A stretch of DNA of 38,144 nucleotides from a virus: the IMG/VR virus record IMGVR_UViG_3300049459_000076, positions 1 through 38,144 of that record. One strand, given 5' to 3'. Position 1 is the first letter of the stretch. Each line of letters opens with the position of its first letter. This document shows, piece by piece, positions 26,851 through 33,927 of the stretch. Both the position numbers and the translations under genes were made by a program. The notes below the pieces were generated by a model. It was not told where the DNA came from. It was given only the letters and a program-made list of their open reading frames with translations, and did not search any database.

Positions 26851-27077
26851 AAATCAAGATGGCAGAGACAGTGCAGGGCTCGCTCGACGGCGAAACCGTG
26901 CAAGAACTGAAAAAAGGCGAGACCTACGACACGGTTGAATCGCCGCGCGGCGATCGCCTCGCCGTGTACCACGTGGAAACGATGGGGCAGGCGGTCTACG
27001 TCAAAGCCGCTTCGGCGCCAGCCGCCGATGAGCCGGCCTTGGACGCTAAAGCATCCACCGTGAAACCTCGCAAATAA
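26847..27077 (+). CDS. Small hypothetical protein (76 aa) in the connector block
   Basis: A 76-residue protein starting in an ATGA overlap. Residues 1-55 are probably a beta barrel (IKMAETVQGSLDGETVQELK, then RGDRLAVYHVETMGQAVYV), and the tail is Ala/Pro/Lys-rich. It shares its layout, an ordered half plus an Ala/Lys tail, with the gene at 19102. The function is unknown. Confidence 0.6.
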   Translation: MKIKMAETVQGSLDGETVQELKKGETYDTVESPRGDRLAVYHVETMGQAVYVKAASAPAADEPALDAKASTVKPRK

Positions 27078-27484
27078 TGGACGCAGTCGCCGTCATGCGC
27101 GCGCTACTGCTGGCGCACGCCCCGCTGACCGACCTGGTCGGCGATCGCATCATCGCCGGCACTGTGCCGCTGTCGGCAGTTACTCCGGTCGCCGTCGGGC
27201 TCACCGAAGTCGGCCGCAACGACGCCGACACGGTCGCGCGCGAGGGCGCTACAACACTTGTCACGGCGCGTGTGCAAGTCACCGTGTACGCGACGACCTA
27301 CCCCGCGATGAAAGCCGCGCTGAACGCCGCACGACTCGGAAGCGGCGTGTTCACAGGCGTGATTGCTGGCCTCCAGGTACGCAGCGTGCTGCGTGACAGC
27401 GTGGGGCCGGACCTTTCAGACGAAGAGCCTGGGATCGCGGAGCAATCTCGAGACTTCATGGTCACGTACATCGAGCCGAATTAA
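27077..27484 (+). CDS. Tail terminator-like protein (DUF3168 type)
   Basis: A 135-residue protein starting in a TAATG overlap. Family features: MRALLLAHAPLTDLVGDRII, then RVQVTVYATTYPAMKAALNA, and SRDFMVTYIEPN at the end. This DUF3168-type protein forms the ring at the end of a siphovirus tail tube, and its place before the tube gene fits. A tandem terminator follows. Confidence 0.85.
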   Translation: MDAVAVMRALLLAHAPLTDLVGDRIIAGTVPLSAVTPVAVGLTEVGRNDADTVAREGATTLVTARVQVTVYATTYPAMKAALNAARLGSGVFTGVIAGLQVRSVLRDSVGPDLSDEEPGIAEQSRDFMVTYIEPN

Positions 27485-27592: not shown

Positions 27593-28045
27593 ATGGCAGG
27601 AATCGATTTTGACACCGTCGCAGGCACCAAGCTGTATGTCGCACTCGCAGCTCCTGCAACCTACGACGCCTCCGGCTACGCCGCCCTGACCTGGGTGGAA
27701 GTCGGCCAGATCACGAACGTCGGCGGCGTCCTCGGTCGCGAATACAACACGGCAACGCTGGAAACCGTCGGCGATGCGCAGGTGCGCGAGAAGAAAGGCA
27801 ACTTCAAGCTGCCGAATGCGGAATTCGAATGCGCATGGGCCGAGAGCGACGCCGGCCAGATCATCCTGGCCACGGCTGCAAACAACAACAGCGTGCCGTC
27901 GTTCAAGCTCGTCAAGCAGGACACCACGAAGCTGCGCTACTTCACCGCCCAAGTGATGAAGTTTGTGGAGAACCAGGGCGCCGCAAACGACGCCGTCAAG
28001 GGCGCATTCACGCTGCTGCGCCAGCGCGACACCGTCATCGTCTAA
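27593..28045 (+). CDS. Major tail tube protein
   Basis: A 150-residue protein with a strong Shine-Dalgarno (TAGGAG, 9 nt before the ATG). It starts MAGIDFDTVAGTKLYVALAA, continues LTWVEVGQITNVGGVLGRE and AQVREKKGNFKLPNAEFE, and ends KGAFTLLRQRDTVIV. The repeated beta strands are those of siphovirus tail tube proteins, and the place between two terminators and the chaperone gene agrees. It builds the tail tube as hexamer rings and would be needed at high level. Confidence 0.88.
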   Translation: MAGIDFDTVAGTKLYVALAAPATYDASGYAALTWVEVGQITNVGGVLGREYNTATLETVGDAQVREKKGNFKLPNAEFECAWAESDAGQIILATAANNNSVPSFKLVKQDTTKLRYFTAQVMKFVENQGAANDAVKGAFTLLRQRDTVIV

Positions 28046-28153: not shown

Positions 28154-28585
28154 ATGTCGAATAACCTGAAAAAATTTGCACTCGTCCCGACCATCATCCA
28201 TCACCTGCTGGACGGCGACGACAGCCCGATGTACGCCGACGGCGCCGATGGACAACCCGATCTGTCGCGCCCGATGCGCGCACACATGTACGGCCCGGGC
28301 ACGAAGCAGTACGCCAAGGCGCAGGCCGCCCAGTCGAACCGCAGCGTCGACCGCTTCAAGGCGAAAGGCAAATCGAAGCAGACCGCCGAGGAGCAAGCCA
28401 CCGAGCGCGCCATGTTCCTGGCCGCCTGCACCGTAAAACTGGAAAACGTCGAAGTCGACCAGCTGGAAGGCGAGGCCCTGGCCATGGCCGTCTACACCGA
28501 CCTCGAGCTGTGCTTCATCCCAGCGCAGCTCGACAAGCTGATCGGTGACACGGCAAATTTTACCAAGGCGTCGCAGACGAGCTAA
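28154..28585 (+). CDS. Tail assembly chaperone, short form (G-like)
   Basis: A 143-residue protein, the likely short tail assembly chaperone. It starts at ATG after AATAGGAAAACACC, with AGGA as Shine-Dalgarno. Typical parts: KKFALVPTIIHHLLDGDDSP, YAKAQAAQSNRSVDRFKAKG, then a helix with LAACTVKLENVEVD and an end that reads LDKLIGDTANFTKASQTS. It is followed in the -1 frame by an open frame without its own start codon that fits an extension (see the next entry). The chaperone probably coats the tape measure during assembly, with the extended form binding the tube. Confidence 0.85.
   Translation: MSNNLKKFALVPTIIHHLLDGDDSPMYADGADGQPDLSRPMRAHMYGPGTKQYAKAQAAQSNRSVDRFKAKGKSKQTAEEQATERAMFLAACTVKLENVEVDQLEGEALAMAVYTDLELCFIPAQLDKLIGDTANFTKASQTS
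28555..28579 (+). other. Programmed -1 frameshift site and stimulatory hairpin
   Basis: A_AAT_TTT lies in frame with the short chaperone (28555-28561), the heptamer X_XXY_YYZ form used for -1 shifts. Seven bases after it, CGTC (28569-28572) pairs with GACG (28576-28579) around GCA, a small hairpin that could help pausing. After the shift the next codon is TAC at 28561. Confidence 0.75.
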
Positions 28586-29019
28586 GCCTGCATGTCCGGC
28601 ACGCCGCCTGGCTCGGGGCGGCGCCGGACAAGCACAAGAGCAACACGTCGGACGCGCCCAGCATCACACGGGCGCAGTCGATCAAAAACGCATTCGAGGA
28701 TGAATCCTACGAGCCGGACATGCCGCCAGTCGAATGCGCAAATCACTTGCTCGGCTATTTCTGGAAGTGGGGGCCGACGCTTGCCGGCTCGATGGGGCAG
28801 GTTGCCCTGTCCCATGTTGACCTCGTCGCCTGCCAGGCAAACACCGGAATTGACCTGACGCCGTGGGAGGCAGAAACCCTCATTCGGCTTTCGCGTGAAT
28901 ACCTGAGTGAATCTAGTGCAGCGACAAAGCAGGACCGCGAGGCGCCGTTCAGGTCGGCAGATGCCGCACGACTGCATGAGCATCGAATGCAGAAGCAGTT
29001 GGACGACTTTTTTGGATGA
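28561..29019 (+). CDS. Frameshift extension of the tail chaperone (GT-like product)
   Basis: The -1 frame stays open from the slippery site to the stop at 29017-29019. It would add 152 residues to the first 136 of the short form, giving a 288-residue GT-type protein. The extension begins YQGVADELSLHVRHAAWLGA and continues ALSHVDLVACQANTGI and LTPWEAETLIRLSREYL, ending KQLDDFFG. This matches what is known for lambda gpG/gpGT and HK97, where a rare longer product links the tape measure to tube monomers. The best in-frame ATG inside (28720) has no good Shine-Dalgarno, and so is not a better start. The extension is supported by the slippery site and uninterrupted frame. Confidence 0.78.
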   Translation, partial: YQGVADELSLHVRHAAWLGAAPDKHKSNTSDAPSITRAQSIKNAFEDESYEPDMPPVECANHLLGYFWKWGPTLAGSMGQVALSHVDLVACQANTGIDLTPWEAETLIRLSREYLSESSAATKQDREAPFRSADAARLHEHRMQKQLDDFFG

Positions 29020-29023
29020 CCAC

Positions 29024-29046
29024 AGCCACCTTCGGGTGGCTTTTTT
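29024..29046 (+). terminator. Strong intrinsic terminator before the tape measure gene
   Basis: AGCCACC (29024-29030) pairs with GGTGGCT (29035-29041) around a stable TTCG loop, followed by a T run. It lies between the chaperone stop codon and the Shine-Dalgarno of the tape measure gene. Confidence 0.85.
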
Positions 29047-29058
29047 ATTGGAGACCGC

Positions 29059-32000
29059 ATGATCGTTGGCGACATGGAAATCCGGCTGCGAGCCGATATC
29101 GCGCGCTTGCAGCGCGATATGGACGCGGCTCGTCAAACGGTCACAAGTGCGACCAACAGCATGGCGCGCGCTGCCGATGCTGCCAAGTCAGCGCTCGCCG
29201 GCATTGGCCTGGGGATTGGCTTGGCGCAGGTCATCCAGATGTCGGATCAGTACACGAAATTTACGGCGCAACTGCGCCTCGCAACCCTCTCGACCCGCGA
29301 ATACACTCAGGCGTTGGCCAGCGTAAAAGCCATCTCCACTGAGGCGCAGGCAAGCCTCGCCGACACCGGCGTCCTTTACGCGAAGATCGCGAACGGAACC
29401 CGGGAGCTCGGCAACACCCAGAAGCAAGTAGCCGACATAACGGAAGTCGTCGGCCTGGGGCTTAAGGTCAGCGGCGCCACCGCGCAAGAGGCATCGTCAG
29501 CGATGCTGCAGCTGTCCCAGTCGTTCGCGTCGGGCGTCCTGCGCGGCGAAGAATTTAACGCTGTCAACGAGGCCGGGCCGCGCATCATGCTTGCCCTAGC
29601 AGACGGCATCGGCGTGCCGGTCGGCGCGCTGAAGAAAATGGCGGAGGAGGGCAAGCTGACGTCCGCCGTGCTGTCCGAAGCGCTGCCGCGCTCGCTGGAA
29701 AAGCTGCGCGAGGAGGCAAAAGAAATCCAGACCATCAGCGGCGCGTTCCAGGTGCTGAAAGATCGCGTAATGGAAGTCACCGCGGTGCGCGCCAAAGATA
29801 ACGGTACTGTCGCGGCACTGACGCAAGGTATTGGACTGCTCGCGAGCAACCTGAACGGTTTGCTGACCGTGATGACTGGCCTGACCGTCATCAAAGCTGC
29901 GACCTGGGCGGCGGAGTGGGTAGTGGCGACGCAGGCGCGCATCGTGGCAAACCGCCAGTTGACGGCATCAGCTGTCGAGTCTGCTGTCGTGGAGTTGCGG
30001 CGCGCGCAGGCTGACCAGCAATCCGCCCTGATTGCTCAGTCGCGGGCCAGGGAGGCTACAGCTGCAGCTCGCATCGAAGTCGCTGCGGACCAGCAGCGCA
30101 TGGCGTCCGCTGCTGCTGCGGCCGAAGCCGCTGTAGCGGCCCGGGTGGCGCAATTTGCGGAAACGCGCGCCATCGTGATGGCCGAAATCGAACTTGAGCA
30201 AGTCCGGCTGGCGGCGCAAATCAATGGCATCGGCAGGGCGCAGCGCGTCGCTGAGCTTGGTCGACTGGGATCTCAGGTGGCGGCAATCAATGCCGGCATG
30301 GCCGCCTCGTCTGCCGAACTGACGGCGGTGCGCATCGCCAATGAGAACGCCGCTGCCGCCGCTGCTGCTGCTGGCGCCGCCAAAATTGCTGCTGCGCGGG
30401 AGGCGGAGACATTGGCCACTGGTGGTGCTGCTGCCGCCACCCTGCGTATGCGCCTAGCAACTGGCGCAATGACGACCGCCATGAGCGCGGCCTCACTGGC
30501 ATCAGGCATCCTCCGTGGCGCCCTGACATTGCTGGGTGGGCCGATTGGCGCTGTGATCACCCTGCTGACACTGGGCGGCCTGGCTTGGATGCAGTGGGGA
30601 AATAAGGCAGAGGAGGCTAGCGACAAGGCTTCTGCCGCCGTCGAGGAATCGACGGTCGAGATGATCGCGCGCCTCGACAAGCAAATCGAGAAGCTGAAGG
30701 AGCGAAACAAGCTTGCCGAGACTGAGCCGCGCATCAAGTCGCTGACTGACTTGAGTGATGCCGATCGCGACGGCCTGGCCCGCGCTAAGGCCCGCCTGGA
30801 CGCCGTGCGCGCAGGGGCTGGAGAGTTCGCCGGCAAGGACATAACGTCGCGTCAGCTGCTTGAAATTGACATCGCAAACAACTACGAAGTCGCATTGAAG
30901 CGCGTCGGTCAGGCTCAGGATGAAGCGACCAAGGCCGCCAATCGCGGGCGCGACGCCAAAATCGCGAAGTGGGTAGGCGAGAACGGCACAGCCGCGCAGA
31001 AAACCGCCTATGAACTGGAGAATATGCGCAAAGAGTTCGGCGAGCTGACGCCGGCGATGGAGAAATTCGTACGTGATAAATACGCCGATAAGGATGCAGC
31101 CAAAAATATCCGCCAAGAGGCGAGCGCCTACGCCACGTTGGTGACCGCTATCGGCGAGAAGGCTGCGGCCAACCGTCTAGAGCTTTCCGGCTACGACAAG
31201 CTGTCCGAATCGCAGAAGCTGACGATTAAGCTGGATGAGGCTATTGCCTTCGGTAAAAACAAAGTTAGCGCCGGGCACATTGAGTCGGCACGCGCAAAGA
31301 TTGCCGAGGTGGCCGCGCAGGAGCGGCTGATCGAAGAAAACAAGTTTTATCAAGAGCAGGCAGAGGAAAGCCTCAAAACTGCCGGTGCTGCGATCAAGGC
31401 AGCAAATGACGAGGCGGACCGCAATGAGGAGTTGGCCAAGACCTTTGGCATGACCAAGAGTGCTGTAGAACTGCTGACTGTTGCGCGGCTAGAAGATCAG
31501 CTCGCGCAGGCAGCGTCCGACAAAGGCTATACCGTCGAAATGGCCCAGCTTGAGGCCCTAATCGATGCAAAGAAGCGTAGCGCTGCCGCCTTGGGCGACA
31601 TCGAAGAGAAAGAGGCAAGCAAAAAGCTTGCGGATCAGCAGCTTGAAGACCAGAAAAAAACGTGGGAGGCGATCGAGACGACGGCCCATGACACTTTTGT
31701 CAGCATCTTCGACAGCGGCAAGTCGGCATTTGATCGCCTGCGCGACACGCTCAAGAACGGACTGTTGGACCTGCTGTATCAGATGGTTATCAAAAAGTGG
31801 GTGCTGAACATCGGCGCCTCGGTCGGCCTGACCGGCGCTGCTGGCCTGGCTCAAGCGGCGAGCGGTGGCGACGGTGTCGCTGGGGCAGCGTCAGGTGCGA
31901 GCGGGCTTATCGGCATGGCGCAGACCGCATCGAGCCTGTACAAGGCAATCTCAGGCGGTTTCTCGGCACTCAGCGGCACCGTTGCGGACGCCGTCCAGGT

Positions 32001-33927
32001 CGGGCTATACGAAACTGGCATGAGTTCGGAATTGCTCGTCAATGGCGCAATTGCGAAGGGCGCCGGCGCATTCGCGGGCGTGGCAGCAGGTGTGCTTGGT
32101 GGCGTCATGGGCGGGCGCCTGATTTCGGGCCAGTACGGCAGCAACACCACTGTGAACGTCGGCACCGCTGTCGGCGCTGCTGTTGGCTCGGTGGTCCCAG
32201 TCATCGGCACGGCAATCGGCGCGCTCGTGGGCGGCCTTCTGGGCGGCATTGGCAATCGCCTATTCGGCATGGGCGACAAGAACGTGACAGCCACCGGCAT
32301 GGCCGGCACGTTGTCCGACGCCGGCTTGTCCGGTTCGAACTATTCGAAGTGGACCCAGAAAGGCGGCTGGTTCCGCAGCGACAAGAGCGGCACCGACAAG
32401 TCGCCGTTCGATGAGGAAGTCACCAAGCAGTTTGTCCAGGGTTTTGCCACCATCAAGGCAGCATCGGCCGGCTTTGCCACGTCGCTTGGCGCATCCACCG
32501 ACAGCCTGGCCAGCTACAGCAAGACCTTCGACATCGCGCTGACGAAAGATGCAGCGGCCAACGAAAAGGCGATCACGGATTTCTTCACAGGTGTAGGCGA
32601 CGAGATTGCGCTGCGCCTGGTGCCTGGCCTTGCCCAGTTCAATAAATCCGGCGAAACGATGGCGACGACGCTGCAGCGGTTGGCCGGCGACTTCGACGCG
32701 ACCAATCAAGTTGCCATGCTGTTGGGGAAAAACGGCACCAGCATGTTCGGCTCGCTGACGATCGATTCGGCGGCGGCGCGCGAGCGCCTGATCGAGTTGG
32801 CTGGCGGAGTGTCGAACCTGACTACGCAGGCCACGGCATTCGCGCAGAACTACCTCACTGAGGCCGAGCGCCTGGCGCCAGTGTCGGAAGCGGTAGCAGC
32901 AGCGATGGCATCGCTCGGACTGGCCAGCGTCACCACGCGTGACCAGTTCAAAACGGTGGTGCAGGGCCTGGACGTCACGACCGCAGCCGGCGCGCAGCAG
33001 TTCGCATCACTGATGGCCCTGTCCGATGCGTTTGCGCAGGTGCACCCCGCGATCGAGGCAACGACCATCGCGCTGCGCACCGAGGCTGACGTGCTGAGTG
33101 AGCGCAAGGATTTGCAGGGTCAAGTCGACAAGTTGACGTTGACATCGGTCCAGTTGCGCCAGAAAGAGCGCACCGCGATTGATGCCAGCAACTTGGCTCT
33201 GTTCGACCAGATCACCGCCCTGCAGAACGCTGCCTCGCTGTCCGACACGCTGAAGACGTCGATCGACAGTCTGAAGTCATTCCGCGACGGCATCGTGTCG
33301 TTCAAAGACTCGCTGACGCTGGGCAGCCTGTCGACGCTGACGCCAATGCAGAAAGCCGCCGAGGCGCAGCGCCAGTACGAAGACATGCTGGCCAAAGCGA
33401 AGGGCGGCGACACCGCGGCACAGTCCGGCATCCAGGCTGCAGCCACGGCATACCTGACGGCGAACCAGGTGATCAACGCCAGCAGCAGCGCATACGTCGC
33501 CGCGTCGGCTAAGGTGCAGTCCGACCTCGCTACGCTGGCATCCATCGCCGGCACGCAGTTGACGGACGCCCAGCAGCAGCTCGCCGCGCTCGACAAGCAA
33601 ACGAGCGAACTGTCGGCGCTCAACGCCACGGCAAGCAGCATCGAGGCCGCACTGACCATGCCGACGCCGGTTCTGAACTGGAGCGACATGGGCACGGTCA
33701 ACATGGCACCGTTGACGGAGGAGATCAAAGGTCTGCGTGCGGATAATGACGACCTTCGCGCTGACAACGCGGCGCTGCTTGCTGCAATAAATCGCCAAAC
33801 GGACGCGGTGGTGCAGGCCACGCTGACGGCAGCGGCAAACAACGCTGAGGCCGTCACTACCGGAAACGCGCAAACCACGCGCAACCAGTCGTGGAAAGCT
33901 CAAATGTACGCCGAGGCCGCGCAATGA
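29059..33927 (+). CDS. Tail tape measure protein
   Basis: A 1622-residue protein that sets tail length and is carried inside the tube. The N-terminus has the tape measure domain: DMEIRLRADIARLQRDMDAA, QYTKFTAQLRLATLSTREYT, VLYAKIANGTRELGNTQ, then LKKMAEEGKLTSAVLSEALP. Residues about 485-515 are a hydrophobic membrane-type segment (LTLLGGPIGAVITLLTLGGL), and residues about 1035-1065 form a glycine-zipper segment (AVGAAVGSVVPVIGTAIGAL). Long helical parts rich in Ala, Lys and Glu lie between. The length points to a tail near 0.24 micrometres by the usual rule of about 0.15 nm per residue. GGAG lies five bases before the ATG. It overlaps the next gene by ATGA. Confidence 0.95.
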   Translation: MIVGDMEIRLRADIARLQRDMDAARQTVTSATNSMARAADAAKSALAGIGLGIGLAQVIQMSDQYTKFTAQLRLATLSTREYTQALASVKAISTEAQASLADTGVLYAKIANGTRELGNTQKQVADITEVVGLGLKVSGATAQEASSAMLQLSQSFASGVLRGEEFNAVNEAGPRIMLALADGIGVPVGALKKMAEEGKLTSAVLSEALPRSLEKLREEAKEIQTISGAFQVLKDRVMEVTAVRAKDNGTVAALTQGIGLLASNLNGLLTVMTGLTVIKAATWAAEWVVATQARIVANRQLTASAVESAVVELRRAQADQQSALIAQSRAREATAAARIEVAADQQRMASAAAAAEAAVAARVAQFAETRAIVMAEIELEQVRLAAQINGIGRAQRVAELGRLGSQVAAINAGMAASSAELTAVRIANENAAAAAAAAGAAKIAAAREAETLATGGAAAATLRMRLATGAMTTAMSAASLASGILRGALTLLGGPIGAVITLLTLGGLAWMQWGNKAEEASDKASAAVEESTVEMIARLDKQIEKLKERNKLAETEPRIKSLTDLSDADRDGLARAKARLDAVRAGAGEFAGKDITSRQLLEIDIANNYEVALKRVGQAQDEATKAANRGRDAKIAKWVGENGTAAQKTAYELENMRKEFGELTPAMEKFVRDKYADKDAAKNIRQEASAYATLVTAIGEKAAANRLELSGYDKLSESQKLTIKLDEAIAFGKNKVSAGHIESARAKIAEVAAQERLIEENKFYQEQAEESLKTAGAAIKAANDEADRNEELAKTFGMTKSAVELLTVARLEDQLAQAASDKGYTVEMAQLEALIDAKKRSAAALGDIEEKEASKKLADQQLEDQKKTWEAIETTAHDTFVSIFDSGKSAFDRLRDTLKNGLLDLLYQMVIKKWVLNIGASVGLTGAAGLAQAASGGDGVAGAASGASGLIGMAQTASSLYKAISGGFSALSGTVADAVQVGLYETGMSSELLVNGAIAKGAGAFAGVAAGVLGGVMGGRLISGQYGSNTTVNVGTAVGAAVGSVVPVIGTAIGALVGGLLGGIGNRLFGMGDKNVTATGMAGTLSDAGLSGSNYSKWTQKGGWFRSDKSGTDKSPFDEEVTKQFVQGFATIKAASAGFATSLGASTDSLASYSKTFDIALTKDAAANEKAITDFFTGVGDEIALRLVPGLAQFNKSGETMATTLQRLAGDFDATNQVAMLLGKNGTSMFGSLTIDSAAARERLIELAGGVSNLTTQATAFAQNYLTEAERLAPVSEAVAAAMASLGLASVTTRDQFKTVVQGLDVTTAAGAQQFASLMALSDAFAQVHPAIEATTIALRTEADVLSERKDLQGQVDKLTLTSVQLRQKERTAIDASNLALFDQITALQNAASLSDTLKTSIDSLKSFRDGIVSFKDSLTLGSLSTLTPMQKAAEAQRQYEDMLAKAKGGDTAAQSGIQAAATAYLTANQVINASSSAYVAASAKVQSDLATLASIAGTQLTDAQQQLAALDKQTSELSALNATASSIEAALTMPTPVLNWSDMGTVNMAPLTEEIKGLRADNDDLRADNAALLAAINRQTDAVVQATLTAAANNAEAVTTGNAQTTRNQSWKAQMYAEAAQ

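Follow-up and report, generated by a model that had tools for sequence, protein, structure and literature searches.

Organization of the chaperone locus

Positions 28154 to 29019 of the window (the whole 38,144-nucleotide stretch analyzed here, an IMG/VR virus record with a G+C content of 61%) contain two overlapping frames between the genes for the major tail protein and the tape measure protein, the usual siphophage place of tail assembly chaperones. Going toward the tape measure, head completion and neck genes come first, followed by a tail terminator-like gene, the major tail protein gene, and the two unnamed frames. This is the gene order by which G/GT pairs are recognized, with the major tail protein on one side of the overlapping frames and the tape measure on the other. 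The features of the region are as follows.

27077-27484: tail terminator-like gene
27593-28045, plus strand: major tail protein gene, upstream neighbor (phrog_158 major tail protein, E 1e-13)
28154-28585, plus strand: G-like tail assembly chaperone frame, 143 aa (homologs, phrog_313 matches in relatives, and predicted fold)
28544-28548, plus strand: GGTGA, containing the −1-frame TGA at 28546-28548
28555-28561, plus strand: candidate slippery heptamer A_AAT_TTT, in phase with the 143-codon frame (tallied over 131 homologous loci)
28561-29019, plus strand: T-like −1 extension, 152 codons plus stop (phrog_20700, E 6e-5; PF23812 via relatives)
28569-28579, plus strand: small hairpin CGTC-GCA-GACG, 4 bp, seven bases past the heptamer (from sequence only)
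28583-28585, plus strand: TAA stop of the short chaperone, with its end 24 nt past the heptamer
28590-28633, plus strand: stable hairpin farther downstream, within the T frame (folding of 79 nt gives −41.5 kcal/mol, z −4.0)
28720-29019, plus strand: 99-aa open reading frame expected from a gene caller, without the conserved N-terminal part of T
29024-29041, plus strand: intrinsic-terminator-like hairpin with a T tail in the gap that separates the tape measure gene from the chaperone pair (consensus match only)
29059-33927, plus strand: tape measure protein gene, downstream neighbor (Pfam TMP_3, E 7e-52; phrog_3519, E 4e-79)

The short plus-strand frame runs from ATG at 28154 to TAA at 28583 to 28585 and encodes 143 aa. 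As a preliminary description of this DNA had stated, A_AAT_TTT lies in the correct phase of this frame, and AAATTTT occurs only this once on the plus strand of the entire window. A TGA at 28546 to 28548 closes the −1 frame, which is open from 28549, only 6 bases 5' of the heptamer, and continues to the stop at 29017 to 29019; its overlap with G is 37 nt, or 12 codons, within which the longest homopolymer run is four T. The listed genes of the window have 16 in-phase canonical heptamers per 11,266 codons, and the chance expectation for one in a 12-codon overlap is 0.017. Since the earliest ATG, GTG, or TTG of the −1 frame in the window is at 28720, the description was also right that this frame is open for 152 codons without a good start of its own, and translating the frames and joining them at the heptamer reproduced its product sizes of 143 aa for G and 288 aa for the G-T fusion. 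The predicted junction peptide of the fusion is ...GDTANFYQGVADELSLHVR....

Upstream of the heptamer, GGTGA (28544 to 28548) is a possible Shine-Dalgarno-like stimulator; the Gly codons at this position in relatives favor GGT over GGC (Fisher p 6e-5). Downstream of T, the terminator-like hairpin at 29024 to 29041 reads AGCCACC-TTCG-GGTGGCT followed by a T run, and comparable hairpins are found 3' of T in 12 of 80 relatives. Such a hairpin could lower tape measure expression relative to that of the chaperones. In eight Vibrio phages (L015, L016, L019, L021, L022, L025, L026, and L029), the same gap between T and the tape measure gene contains at least one reverse-strand open reading frame, which in F89 g1 encodes an HNH endonuclease; the gap looks like an insertion hotspot.

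The proposed slip site across relatives

The first relatives recovered, six further contigs and cultured phages (Acinetobacter phages Effie and MD-2021a and Salicola phage CGphi29), have the identical two frames with T one base back. Their site is A_AAT_TTT throughout, with the exception of C_AAT_TTT in one of them (L007). A 20-base DNA pattern around the site, used alone on IMG/VR, identified at least 119 stretches, at least 78 of which are T homologs with an in-phase heptamer, and the G stop ends 24 nt after the heptamer in 76 of 78 among the pattern-found relatives listed. This set is selected on the heptamer. An unbiased set was obtained by protein searches with probes downstream of the site, and comprises 36 bacterial genome loci (from Janthinobacterium, Duganella, Massilia, Variovorax, Sphingomonas, Sphingobium, Novosphingobium, and others) and 80 viral relatives kept out of 400. 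Together with the first relatives, this set gives 131 loci, with a minor bias from a few contigs that entered via G-protein probes, one of which covers the site residues.

Among the 131 homologous loci, the site is A_AAT_TTT in 80, A_AAT_TTC at the window's codon pair in 14, the lambda-type G_GGA_AAN one codon upstream in 9, and T_TTT_TTN in 4, and 24 have a weaker site at best, such as C_AAT_TTT or G_TCT_TTT. The preliminary description had called A_AAT_TTT less common than A_AAA_AAG; in this family, that generalization fails, as A_AAT_TTT is the majority site. When T proteins were grouped at 70% identity, a canonical in-phase heptamer was present at the site in 64 of the resulting 81 clusters, against a background of canonical heptamers at 7 of 8,667 upstream codons of those G frames. 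AAT and TTT dominate at the site, although the rest of G uses AAC and TTC more often. In sphingomonad relatives the residues are changed, and a slippery heptamer is retained as G_GGA_AAR/AAC. Such heptamer-for-heptamer swaps at one place are hard to explain without selection for slippage. Two-frame coding could account for some of the nucleotide conservation at the site.

The alignment in relatives, proposed earlier as a check, thus finds the site kept or swapped for another canonical heptamer, with both frames homologous. Loss of the heptamer with both frames kept, which had been named as evidence against a frameshift, does not describe the 64 canonical clusters; the other 17 clusters have a weaker site. 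The 24 less canonical loci imply either that weaker sites are sufficient or that some loci use another route.

In seven relatives (L198, L204, L210, L232, L238, L256, and L165), A_AAT_TTC directly abuts the TAA stop of G, so that a slip would occur beside the stop codon, possibly making this arrangement a stop-stimulated variant of the site. Two loci found by the slip-site DNA pattern (L071 and L127) encode a divergent type of T (YEELGEALAEAV...) that is weakly similar to the main T family and has the identical site.

Conservation of T from the proposed slip point

In the first relatives, similarity to the window's T starts at, or within one residue of, the post-slip residue. Across 46 aligned T proteins, residues L8, V12, R13, A16, W17, P22, and R37 are invariant or nearly invariant, and all precede M54, the first possible start in the window. 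The T structure model (pLDDT 95) predicts residues 2 to 19 as a confident helix. Past the G stop, the first four differences between the window and its relative L001 (28587, 28608, 28617, and 28629) all fall on the third base of T-frame codons. First-start positions of T vary widely among relatives, and none is conserved. Public records of the first relatives give T an internal start and list it as a hypothetical gene of its own, just as the preliminary description had anticipated of a gene caller.

Family identity of G and T

The T proteins of relatives match Pfam family PF23812 (Phage_TAC_18) in 7 of 9 members at an E value of 1, and in a second comparison in 8 of 10 family members at an E value of 0.01. 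The T of one relative (L063) scored 28.7 bits, above the curated cutoff of 27. Because the window's own T has no Pfam match at an E value of 1, membership in Phage_TAC_18 runs via its homologs. For G, 5 of 46 relatives match phrog_313 (tail assembly chaperone), and searches of Pfam and PHROGs with the window's own G gave nothing convincing.

Structure prediction points to a chaperone-like fold for G. The best match of the G model (pLDDT 92) among solved structures is 2ob9, the tail chaperone of HK97, with a Z of 5.3 and an rmsd of 4.9 over 97 residues, and the next match, an unrelated structure, has a Z of 2.6. The modest Z score, at 6% identity, suggests that the modeled G has a common fold with the HK97 protein. 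Foldseek found no match to the G model in the PDB at an E value of 0.001; in BFVD, Caulobacter phage Sansa supplies the best named matches, namely its two chaperone products (E 1e-4 and 2e-4). The T model had no clear fold match in the PDB, and PDB searches returned no sequence relative.

Several other searches came back empty. Neither a nucleotide search of phage records nor tblastn of G against phages produced a match. A first genome scan with the window's T alone found none, and an alignment query was needed instead; nine distant T proteins, once aligned, were too divergent to serve as one. A literature search, with most subscription papers outside its reach, found no description of A_AAT_TTT in tail chaperones. 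A Wolbachia paper with AAATTTT was set aside as concerning a different, unrelated gene.

RNA structure near the site

The preliminary description had also noted a small hairpin seven bases after the heptamer. It is present at 28569 to 28579, but its 4-bp stem is weak and absent from the lowest-energy folds, its stability was not above chance when tested, and a role for it gained no support. Farther downstream, the distal hairpin at 28590 to 28633 has a z score of −3.5 against synonymous-codon shuffles, and the window and L001 differ by a compensatory pair within it (28608 C>G with 28617 G>C). Throughout the window's group, 40-nt stretches 31 to 77 nt past the heptamer show greater stability than synonymous-codon shuffles that do not preserve local composition (mean z −1.5, 81 clusters, p 5e-12, a value that is too small because the clusters are related); the first 47 nt do so only slightly. 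For the distal region of 53 sequences, RNAalifold found no consensus structure, and a hand-written 12-bp distal helix had 64% of cells paired with weak covariation, which argues against a single fixed helix there.

A different arrangement is found in eight distinct Vibrio sequences, where a stem starts exactly 6 nt past the heptamer and its covariation is higher than in any of 500 shuffles or any slid control. In weak-site clusters, structure tends to be more pronounced proximally (p 0.055) and less so distally (p 0.025), a relation between slip-site strength and structure that is a lead and not a result. One speculative explanation, which we consider rather unlikely, is a trade-off in which strong heptamers are paired with structure 30 to 77 nt downstream and weak P-site heptamers with the 6-nt stem. 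If true, the distal structure would be a nonclassical regulator of the G:GT ratio.

A −1 frameshift as the proposed route to a G-T fusion

With the anatomy of the locus, its synteny, and the conservation of the site and both frames directly supported, we conclude with high confidence that the locus is a G/GT tail assembly chaperone pair joined by a −1 slip at A_AAT_TTT. Judging from sequence comparison, slippage at this heptamer very probably occurs in the window phage and in more than a hundred relatives. The lambda-like G/GT pattern put forward in the preliminary description is likewise supported by the site and both frames in relatives and by T homology that begins at the slip point. We infer the occurrence and efficiency of slippage, the partners bound, and any part played by RNA structure, as follows.

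Most ribosomes would read 28154 to 28585 and produce the 143-aa chaperone G. In a smaller share of them, the Asn-tRNA that reads AAT in the P site and the Phe-tRNA that reads TTT in the A site would slip back in tandem by one base, the former from AAT to AAA and the latter from TTT to TTT. These ribosomes would then stay in the −1 frame to 29019, yielding a minor 288-aa G-T fusion. By analogy with lambda, G would coat the tape measure protein and the T part would recruit the major tail protein, a division of labor under which the slip rate would set the G:GT ratio.

Treating T as a separate gene, initiated internally (for example, at ATG 28720, giving 99 aa) or by translational coupling past the G stop, agrees with the depositors who annotated second genes in Effie, MD-2021a, CGphi29, and the Vibrio phages. 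However, the window offers no ATG, GTG, or TTG in the T frame before 28720, a start there would lose the most conserved N-terminal part of T, and start positions are not conserved; the working start codon that the preliminary description had named as counterevidence was looked for, and an ATG precedes W17 in only 10 of the 81 clusters. A separate T is accordingly quite improbable. We give a similarly low probability to other forms of recoding, either transcriptional slippage or ribosomal slippage elsewhere in the 37-nt overlap. The 12-codon width of the overlap leaves room for these, as do the relatives that have no canonical heptamer at the codon pair, but transcriptional slippage usually needs tracts longer than four T, the longest run available, and the heptamer is in phase or swapped for a canonical heptamer at or next to the site.

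The heptamer could also be fixed by dual coding of Asn-Phe and, in the second frame, Lys-Phe-Tyr, with slippage incidental, because constraint at AAT TTT TAC would lock most bases. This is less probable still: the −1 frame is closed 6 nt upstream, so that −1 translation past the site needs a frame change there, and the sphingomonads remain slippery despite their changed residues. Finally, the window is a single metagenomic contig, in which a sequencing or assembly frameshift might have split one gene, or the pair might be a decayed gene. That the two-frame layout recurs across isolates, prophages, and over 100 independent contigs already refutes this explanation, and its probability is negligible.

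The frameshift mechanism proposed for this G/GT pair is ordinary and known from phage lambda. New here are how broad the family is, how A_AAT_TTT dominates in it, that heptamer types are swapped, and that most public annotation of the family fails to join the G and T frames. Joining them corrects the annotation of a large, mostly unannotated group of Pseudomonadota phages and prophages that spans Janthinobacterium, Duganella, Massilia, Sphingomonas, Sphingobium, Variovorax, Vibrio, Acinetobacter, and Salicola. The group also provides a natural series of one frameshift site, from A_AAT_TTT through A_AAT_TTC, G_GGA_AAN, and T_TTT_TTN to weaker sites, with differing RNA structures, useful for testing determinants of slippage efficiency.

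Comparison with known systems

The G/GT tail assembly chaperones of lambda were reportedly described by Xu, Hendrix, and Duda in 2004. The lambda slip site is G_GGA_AAG, compared with A_AAT_TTT in the window; in both, a canonical heptamer lies near the end of G. In lambda, too, the pair has the major tail protein gene on one side and the tape measure gene on the other, and it encodes a short G and a −1 frameshifted GT, with G binding the tape measure, T recruiting the major tail protein, and a ratio of 30:1 (PMC5009743).

The Vibrio group (phiHSIC, K24, and vB_VaS_L1) has a homologous T in the −1 frame after the identical codon pair. It differs in its sites, G_GCT_TTT or A_ACT_TTT, and in the annotation of T as a separate gene with a TTG start.

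A further known system is Caulobacter phage Sansa, with a tape-measure chaperone pair (KT001913, CPT_Sansa35/36) whose fusion type constitutes PHROG 4966 (phrog_4966). Its G and T match the family profiles at 27 and 20 bits, and its products of 161 and 310 aa compare with 143 and 288 aa in the window. Sansa has a different site (G_GGA_AAA), a longer joining segment, and only remote similarity to the window, yet it is annotated with "ribosomal slippage" at the point equivalent to that proposed here. Together with the profile matches, this annotation means that an annotated frameshifted member of the wider family already exists.
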